Virus record (IMG/VR): IMGVR_UViG_3300020704_000001
Span: 16,621-80,620 of that record
Origin: a virus
DNA: 64,000 nucleotides
Strand: one strand, 5' to 3'
The notes under the pieces are model-generated. The model was given only the letters and a program-made list of their open reading frames with translations. It ran no database searches and was not told the DNA's origin. The position numbers were made by a program, and so were the translations under genes. Below, in pieces: positions 55,372 to 56,276 of the stretch (positions within the stretch are counted from its first letter, which is position 1; every line of letters starts with the position of its first letter).

Positions 55372-55977
55372 ATGATTATTGGTTTATGTGGTTTAATTGG
55401 TTCAGGAAAAGGCACTGCTGGTGAAATCTTAGTGGAACATGGTTTTGTTCCACTATCATTTGCTGGTTCTCTTAAGGATGCTGTTTCTGCTATCTTTGGA
55501 TGGGAAAGAGCATTACTTGAGGGTGATACTGATGAATCTAGAGATTTTAGAGAAGATGTTGATCCATTTTGGACAAAAAAGTTTGGAAGGGAGATTACCC
55601 CTAGAATTATATTACAGGAGTTTGGGACTGAGGTTGTTCGAAACAATTGTCTTGATTCTATTTGGGTTGATTCGCTTGAAAGAAAACTTTCTTTATATGA
55701 AAATGTTGTGGTTACAGATGTTAGATTTTCTAATGAGATTGATTTCTTAAGAAACTTAAATGGTCAAATTATACAAATCAATAGAGGTGAATTACCTGAA
55801 TGGTATTCTGTTGCTGAAAGAAACAATACATTGTATACTAATGATATTCTTTTTATAAGAGAATACCCAAGGATACATAAATCGGAATGGGGTTGGATAG
55901 GTAATAAAGGTATTGACTATATAATTGACAATAATGGTTCAAAAGAAGATTTAGAACAAAAATTGTTGAACAGGTAG
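55372..55977 (+). CDS. 1: Deoxynucleoside monophosphate kinase (gp1-like)
   Basis: 201 residues (T4 gp1 is 241). P-loop GLCGLIGSGKGTAGEIL at the N terminus; then FGWERALLEGDTDESRDFR, typical of the phage dNMP kinase family, ILQEFGTEVVRNNCLDSIW and VVTDVRFSNEIDFLRNL, the latter carrying the DxRF motif. It phosphorylates dNMPs for the phage DNA precursor pool. Driven by its own promoter and followed directly by the tRNA cluster. Confidence 0.9.
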   Translation: MIIGLCGLIGSGKGTAGEILVEHGFVPLSFAGSLKDAVSAIFGWERALLEGDTDESRDFREDVDPFWTKKFGREITPRIILQEFGTEVVRNNCLDSIWVDSLERKLSLYENVVVTDVRFSNEIDFLRNLNGQIIQINRGELPEWYSVAERNNTLYTNDILFIREYPRIHKSEWGWIGNKGIDYIIDNNGSKEDLEQKLLNR

Positions 55978-55989
55978 AATAGTGAAAAG

Positions 55990-56093
55990 TGAGCAGTGCT
56001 CTTAGGTACTCTAATGGTAAGAGATTTGACTGTTAATCAAACGTATACAGAAATGTTATGGGGGTTCGAGTCCCTCCCTAAGAGCACTGCTCA
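55990..56093 (+). other. 17-bp perfect stem enclosing tRNA-Asn
   Basis: The leader 55990-55999 pairs exactly with the trailer 56084-56093, extending the 7-bp acceptor helix (56000-56006 with 56077-56083) to 17 consecutive base pairs. The discriminator base is part of this extension. Confidence 0.8.
56000..56084 (+). tRNA. tRNA-Asn (GTT), atypical
   Basis: Acceptor TCTTAGG/CCTAAGA, D-arm CTCT-AATGGTA-AGAG, anticodon arm TTTGA-CTGTTAA-TCAAA with anticodon GTT (56032-56034), T-arm GGGGG-TTCGAGT-CCCTC and discriminator G, as in bacterial tRNA-Asn. CCA is not encoded. The variable region is 18 nt (56042-56059) instead of about 5, and contains a small ACA-GAAA-TGT hairpin. Leader and trailer extend the acceptor stem by 10 bp. 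Confidence 0.75.
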
Positions 56094-56105
56094 TTTAAAT
56101 AAATT

Positions 56106-56198
56106 ACAAGGTAAAATCTTGAAAGAAAACACTTCAAAGGTCGGGAGATACACTTTGAATAGTGGTGCAGTAAAAGTCTGTGATATCTCCCCCTTGTT
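56106..56198 (+). other. Structured inter-tRNA element
   Basis: Nested complementarity: ACAAGG (56106-56111) with CCTTGT (56193-56198), an inner TTGAA/TTCAA hairpin, and GGGAGATA (56143-56150) with TATCTCCC (56184-56191) enclosing CACT/AGTG and CAG/CTG hairpins. It has no T-loop motif. It could be a decayed tRNA or a processed spacer RNA. I see no known family. Confidence 0.35.
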
Positions 56199-56200
56199 TT

Positions 56201-56276
56201 GAGGATGGTAGCTCAATGGTAGAGCAGTTTGTTAGAAATAACATTTAAGCATGGGTTCGAATCCCATCGTTCCTCA
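56201..56276 (+). tRNA. tRNA-like gene with abnormal anticodon arm
   Basis: D-arm GCTC-AATGGTA-GAGC and T-arm ATGGG-TTCGAAT-CCCAT are normal. The acceptor GAGGATGG/CGTTCCTC has two mismatches. The anticodon region folds as TGTTA-GAAA-TAACA, a 5-bp stem with a GAAA tetraloop, instead of a 7-base loop; I cannot assign an anticodon. CCA is absent. It is either a decayed tRNA or a tRNA mimic. Confidence 0.55.

Follow-up and report, generated by a model that had tools for sequence, protein, structure and literature searches.

The window analysed here, a single stretch of 64,000 nucleotides, belongs to an IMG/VR virus record of 80.6 kb, which has a T4-like replication module: a late sigma factor, an SbcC/SbcD-like nuclease, a sliding clamp and a clamp loader. 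Five tRNA genes lie between a dNMP-kinase gene and the clamp gene, and the first of them is a tRNA-Asn(GUU) (Table 1). ARAGORN and the Rfam family RF00005 agree on this identity, as the initial annotation had read it from the letters; the RF00005 match scores 60.1 bits against a gathering cut-off of 29, spans model positions 1–71 and forms a full cloverleaf. The anticodon GUU and G73, canonical for tRNA-Asn, make up an ordinary set of Asn identity bases together with the U1-A72 pair, and the register continues with C74 and then A75 C76 where CA would be expected.

The 18-nt variable region pointed out in the initial annotation is real, and a GAAA-capped hairpin can form within it. Despite this long variable arm the gene is not a class II tRNA, given that its anticodon is that of Asn and not of Leu, Ser or Tyr. 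In the survey described below, a long variable region was found in 20 of 62 extended tRNA-Asn and in 9 of 87 non-extended ones, and it is a trait separate from the helix extension. Phage tRNA-Asn, extended or not, repeatedly have variable regions of 12–24 nt, in which a GNRA-type loop is usual (for example in the window, L294, L281 and L413). Docking of the GAAA tetraloop into an 11-nt receptor within the tRNA (UAUGG...CCUAAG) was considered and is probably a coincidence. Further along the cluster, the gene called as tRNA-Ser(AGA) at 56202–56275 seemingly has a GNRA tetraloop (TGTTA-GAAA-TAACA) in place of the 7-nt anticodon loop. Its relative in L096 (7218–7293) reads TGTTA-GTGA-TAACA at this point, and judging from the letters the two may represent a conserved anticodon-less tRNA-like RNA.

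The leader of the tRNA-Asn pairs with its trailer without a break from -1:73 to -13:85, which is 13 bp past the acceptor stem and gives a helix of 20 bp when the acceptor stem is included (55987–56006 with 56077–56096). The initial annotation had described a 17-bp helix with ten extra pairs; the perfect extension is real but was understated, as three outer pairs (G.U, A-U and A-U) had not been counted. With a fold energy of -45.6 kcal/mol, the structure is far more stable than shuffled sequences (z = -5.96), none of 200 of which folded as well. By the same pairing count the remaining tRNAs of the cluster extend by 0–1 bp, which bears out the contrast previously drawn with them, although the description of those others as CCA-containing needs care: CCA is encoded neither by the tRNA-Asn nor by the Ser(AGA)-like gene.

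Table 1 Features of the tRNA-Asn(GUU) locus, in window coordinates.
Feature	Coordinates	Strand	Basis
Relic GRIVKSEQCS*, in-frame GIY-YIG C-terminus; overlaps kinase end and 5' arm	55973..56005	+	alignment; L096/L097 ORFs
Extension 5' arm, leader -13 to -1	55987..55999	+	sequence; fold; pairing count
Distal box 5' half, A-12 G-11	55988..55989	+	sequence; class enrichment at these pairs; PMC5141509
Proximal-box position 5' half, CAGU, -6 to -3	55994..55997	+	sequence; C-6 and G78 enriched
Predicted 5' cut, between -1 and +1	55999..56000	+	inferred: box positions, 2-nt overhang rule
tRNA-Asn(GUU), predicted excised tRNA positions 1–74	56000..56085	+	ARAGORN; Rfam RF00005, 60.1 bits
tRNA-Asn(GUU) landmarks (CCA not encoded)	U1 56000, A72 56083, G73 56084, C74 56085		
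Variable region, 18 nt, GAAA-loop hairpin, separate trait	56042..56059	+	sequence; fold; survey
Extension 3' arm, positions 73–85, 13 bp including one G.U	56084..56096	+	sequence; fold; pairing count
Predicted 3' cut, between C74 and 75	56085..56086	+	inferred: box positions, 2-nt overhang rule
Distal box 3' half, U83 U84	56094..56095	+	sequence; class enrichment at these pairs; PMC5141509
Pseudoknot-like RNA, conserved with tRNA in mobile block	56133..56191	+	alignment with L096/L097; repeated family
Pseudoknot-like RNA parts	a 56133–56139, b 56143–56150, a' 56153–56159, hairpin 56168–56180, b' 56184–56191		

Relatives of the neighbouring genes were scanned, and pairing past the acceptor stem was measured for every tRNA. 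Of the 286 distinct tRNAs measured first, 282 had no more than two continuous extra pairs and four had 12–13, namely three unrelated tRNA-Asn (window, L018 and L235) and a tRNA-Gln (L239). As four extended tRNAs that were compared have no sequence in common in their helices, counts were made by structural register. The survey was then widened: GIY-YIG homing endonucleases, which accompany such tRNA clusters, were used in a profile scan. Extension length is bimodal: about 30 of ~1,120 distinct phage-contig tRNAs have roughly 11–14 extra pairs. For the 1,050 tRNAs with a defined register, the background reaches about 9 of 13 positions paired (-1 to -13) and 33 tRNAs stand at 10–13; 11 are perfect over 13 pairs and 10 of these end exactly there. 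The initial annotation had proposed looking for the extension in related phages, and it does recur there, with arm sequences that are unrelated between phages; what is conserved is the register with the acceptor stem. The window tRNA itself recurs in L096 and L097, where one trailer change turns a G-C into a G.U and keeps the pair. Because the extended helix is found in unrelated sequences, a chance helix is ruled out, as it is by the shuffles and by the bimodal lengths. A trait specific to tRNA-Asn is likewise ruled out, given that about ten isoacceptors carry the extension, most often tRNA-His (9 of 28) and tRNA-Asn (8 of 55).

So that length would not be judged on the cases that had suggested it, IMG/VR was scanned with a tRNA-Asn pattern that fixed pairs -1 to -4 only. 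This gave 58 extended sequences, and the acceptor stem was good in 57. At the unspecified pairs the pairing was 95–100% from -5 to -11, 84% at -12, 79% at -13 and 41% at -14, the last being background, at the level of unrelated sequence. Most pattern matches that lacked the extended helix were no tRNAs in that register.

When the tRNA-Asn pattern was run on bacterial and archaeal genomes, 257 billion bases in all, it gave only about eight true cases, including a tRNA array of Novimethylophilus kurashikiensis, an array in a Gallionellaceae MAG and a few Patescibacteria-group chromosomes, and the trait is therefore strongly phage-enriched. Within the phylum of one of the latter (L463, a Patescibacteria MAG) the pattern was present in 2 of 380 genomes. 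Chromosomal tRNA-Asn genes with an 11–13 bp extension were seen in L450, L457, L463, L466 and L479, all of the Patescibacteria group and rare in the phylum, and the one in L450 lies near a likely dnaG gene. On the N. kurashikiensis contig (L444/L478), an extended tRNA-Asn and an extended tRNA-His sit amid ordinary tRNAs, together with a divergent copy of the pseudoknot-like RNA described below; the content of this array suggests exchange with phages. Among cultured phages, an extended tRNA-His is carried by Vibrio phage nt-1, by Stenotrophomonas phages Marzo, Mendera and Moby, and by Synechococcus phage BUCT-ZZ01, an extended tRNA-Thr with a perfect box by Acinetobacter phage AM101, and an extended tRNA-Pro by Rhizobium phage RHph_I1_18. 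The checked stretches of T4, XacN1, Va1, phiAbaA1 and Proteus phage VTCCBPA139 hold no clear extended tRNA, the 80–110 kb stretch of KVP40 holds no tRNA, and close DNA relatives among cultured phages gave only ordinary tRNA matches or weak chance matches.

In L096 and L097 an intact 221-aa GIY-YIG homing endonuclease ends within the 5' stem of the tRNA (...GWYKGRTVKSEQCS*), and a relic of its C-terminus is located after the kinase stop in the window. The relic and the intact gene together indicate that the tRNA block, including the downstream pseudoknot-like RNA, is mobile, as expected of a tRNA module linked to a homing endonuclease. Endonucleases of the SegB type are known to accompany phage tRNA genes and to amplify them (PMC13096335). 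The pseudoknot-like RNA shows a compensatory change in a/a' when aligned with L096/L097, and the family has no match in Rfam. Its arrangement (a, b, a', a hairpin with a TAARAGT loop, b') is repeated within phage tRNA clusters, with copies in the window, in L096 (6732, 7074, 7182 and 7915), L097, L248–L257 and L478. Some non-tRNA stretches of such clusters (L096 7460–7790 and L239 2930–3000) also seem to be closed by long terminal helices (AAAACACATTC...GAGTGTGTTTT and GAACATGAAATGTA...TACATTTCATGTTC).

The length and register of the helix recall substrates of RNase III. Counted from the cleavage centre, the E. coli enzyme has a distal box, UU/AG, at 10–11 and a proximal box, CWUW/WAWG, at 2–5 (PMC5141509). 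Substrates of more than 11 bp contain the distal box, which is 2 bp long (PMC4858673), and the cuts leave 2-nt 3' overhangs (PMC5371410). By the overhang rule, a cut at -1/+1 would therefore be accompanied by a second at 74/75, which would centre the site between -1:73 and -2:74 and place the distal box at -11/-12 and the proximal box at -3 to -6. In 57 non-redundant non-His cases, -11 has 24 of the G.U pairs with the G in the leader, against 11 for the ten other pairs combined (p about 1e-19), and AG at -12,-11 occurs 24 times (p about 7e-15), these p values being rough because sequences were treated as independent once near-duplicates had been removed. AG/UU on both strands is found 15 times in the predicted register and 0–4 times in other registers. 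Across the outer positions, counts of C peak at -6 (23) and counts of G at 78 (28), and both bases are enriched there in the class. By sequence, then, the enriched positions are the published RNase III box positions, with the qualification that the consensus is that of E. coli and may not hold in other hosts. In the window the distal box is an exact AG/UU, G.U wobble included, at the spacing that the class statistics single out, and CAGU faces ACUG (56086–56089), with three of four pairs agreeing with CWUW/WAWG. Together, the 20-bp helix and the 5-bp T stem also give the unbroken helix, about two turns long around the cut, that marks an RNase III stem.

Mature tRNA-His normally retains one extra 5' nucleotide, and an excision model therefore predicts the whole site one pair further outward, with the 3' end at 75. 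Among the extended tRNA-His groups, AG/UU stands at -13/-12 in 6 of 8 and at the Asn register in none of the 8, with the caveat that these tRNAs mostly have U at -1 and not the usual G; the tRNA-His of nt-1 and BUCT-ZZ01 have the same one-pair-shifted box. All eight groups encode C73-C74-C75, and most other extended tRNAs encode C74 without C75.

A complete CCA is encoded by 8 of 35 extended tRNAs against 969 of 1,120 others (p about 2e-16), and within the helix it would introduce a mismatch or constraint. The persistence of an encoded CCA in about a quarter of extended tRNAs counts against the excision model. C74 is weakened as stand-alone proof, given that it is also present in 76% of non-extended CCA-less tRNAs, a control set of which part may be mis-registered. 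The absence of C75 in the Asn set is partly by construction because the pattern fixed A75-A76, and L018 has A74 instead of C74.

We consider it likely that the extended helix serves as a built-in site for processing of the RNase III type, at which one cut gives both ends of the tRNA and RNase P is not needed. The helix class with its length limit, the box positions, the tRNA-His shift and the scarcity of encoded CCA are seen in the sequences themselves; which enzyme acts, where it cuts and in what order the tRNA matures are inferred from them. The leader and trailer would prolong the acceptor stem, and the extension, the 7-bp acceptor stem and the 5-bp T stem would form about 25 bp of coaxial double-stranded RNA. 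The site, located where the tRNA itself ends, would be flanked by 12–13 bp on each side, its inner arm being the acceptor and T stems (12 bp). An RNase III dimer, presumably the host's, would cut at -1/+1 and, offset by two nucleotides, at 74/75. This single event would mature the 5' end and leave N73-C74 at the 3' end, to which the CCA-adding enzyme would then supply C75 and A76, making RNase P and the 3'-trailer nuclease dispensable; in tRNA-His, which keeps -1, the outward shift of the site would leave C75 as the 3' end. A host enzyme is assumed because no phage RNase III was found: PF00636 was detected in 0 of 34 phage records, many of them fragments, with controls positive in 8 of 14 genomes. 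Pairing of the leader with RCCA inhibits RNase P (PMC9433436) and is described as an obstacle to it elsewhere (PMC10731613), which fits an alternative maturation route. The processing signal dependent on a double-strand cutter, one of the options in the initial annotation, is thus well supported by a helix length that is nearly fixed, by boxes at the positions known for RNase III, by the one-nucleotide shift seen in tRNA-His and by the finding that C74 (C75 in tRNA-His) is the last encoded residue of CCA.

It is unlikely that the helix instead acts as a folding clamp, isolating the tRNA to ensure proper folding whatever the transcript and blocking exonucleases until RNase P unwinds it and processes normally. 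Such a clamp would be useful to mobile cassettes, and the tRNA block does move between contexts with a homing endonuclease; short leader-RCCA pairing can also be unwound by RNase P (PMC9433436), but two such pairs already slow the enzyme and the window has 13. Neither the 11–13 bp limit, the G.U preference confined to -11, the fixed AG/UU nor the tRNA-His shift is predicted by a clamp. The other option of the initial annotation, a self-protecting or nuclease-resistant tRNA whose precursor would remain a helix and serve as a decoy or counter host nucleases instead of working in translation, appears very unlikely: phage tRNAs do counter tRNA-cleaving defences (PMC13096335), but many isoacceptors are extended with anticodon, discriminator and T-arm features intact, the box positions suit cutting and not protection, and the idea predicts neither these positions nor the sharp length limit and has gained no evidence. 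That limit is left unexplained by tetraloop and terminator readings as well as by a decoy. The same excision by another double-strand cutter, either a Mini-III enzyme or an unrecognised phage nuclease, would satisfy the geometric argument equally, no Pfam RNase III domain was found in the 34 phage records, and many phage genes are of unknown function; we nevertheless regard it as highly improbable, as Mini-III enzymes have no proximal or distal box preference (PMC5141509), yet the box bases are conserved in the class. A DNA-level inverted repeat serving the homing endonuclease or recombination, to which the GIY-YIG link in L096/L097 might point, is scarcely credible, given that the repeat prolongs the acceptor stem in the same register, that its G.U pairs are not palindromic in DNA and that its arms differ in sequence between phages. 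Neither such a repeat nor a decoy accounts for the length limit, the box bases or the tRNA-His shift.

Extending the RNase III-type excision reading to the class as a whole, we lean slightly towards a dedicated, convergent and RNase P-independent route, in which the two ends of a CCA-less phage tRNA come from one RNase III cut. This route would be concentrated in tRNA-His and tRNA-Asn across many phages and a few bacterial genomes, and it may free the phage tRNA supply from host RNase P. The making of tRNA 5' ends is regarded as almost universally the work of RNase P, and such a route, if true, would be an unexpected second one in bacteria. No report of such a tRNA class was found in the open-access literature that was searched. 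Direct tests are possible with purified enzyme and cultured phages. If the reading holds, it would give annotators a simple signature, help to explain CCA-less phage tRNAs and offer a compact means of releasing tRNAs or other RNAs with defined ends.

The helix resembles established RNase III stems, such as those of rRNA precursors and phage T7 R1.1, in spanning at least two turns and in its box positions around a staggered cut. It differs from them in that the predicted cut lies at the tRNA end and would make both functional ends, and in that the acceptor and T stems of the tRNA itself form half of the substrate. In the E. coli metY-nusA-infB transcript, as reportedly described by Regnier and Grunberg-Manago in 1989, RNase III also releases a tRNA from a longer transcript, as predicted here, but the cut there is said to fall downstream of the tRNA and not to make the mature ends. 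Maturation free of RNase P is known elsewhere from the leaderless tRNAs of Nanoarchaeum and from the HARP and PRORP enzymes. These share with the proposed route a mature 5' end made without ribozyme RNase P, but they use leaderless transcription or another leader endonuclease and not a double-stranded RNA cut. The SegB-tRNA clusters of T4 and T6 similarly tie a GIY-YIG homing endonuclease to mobile phage tRNA genes (PMC13096335), whereas T4's own tRNAs, checked here, are without the extended helix. The extended-acceptor pre-tRNAs of E. coli are comparable in that the leader likewise pairs with the tRNA 3' end; however, these form about two such pairs, have an encoded CCA and remain substrates of RNase P (PMC9433436, PMC10731613), whereas the phage class has 11–13 pairs, usually without an encoded CCA.
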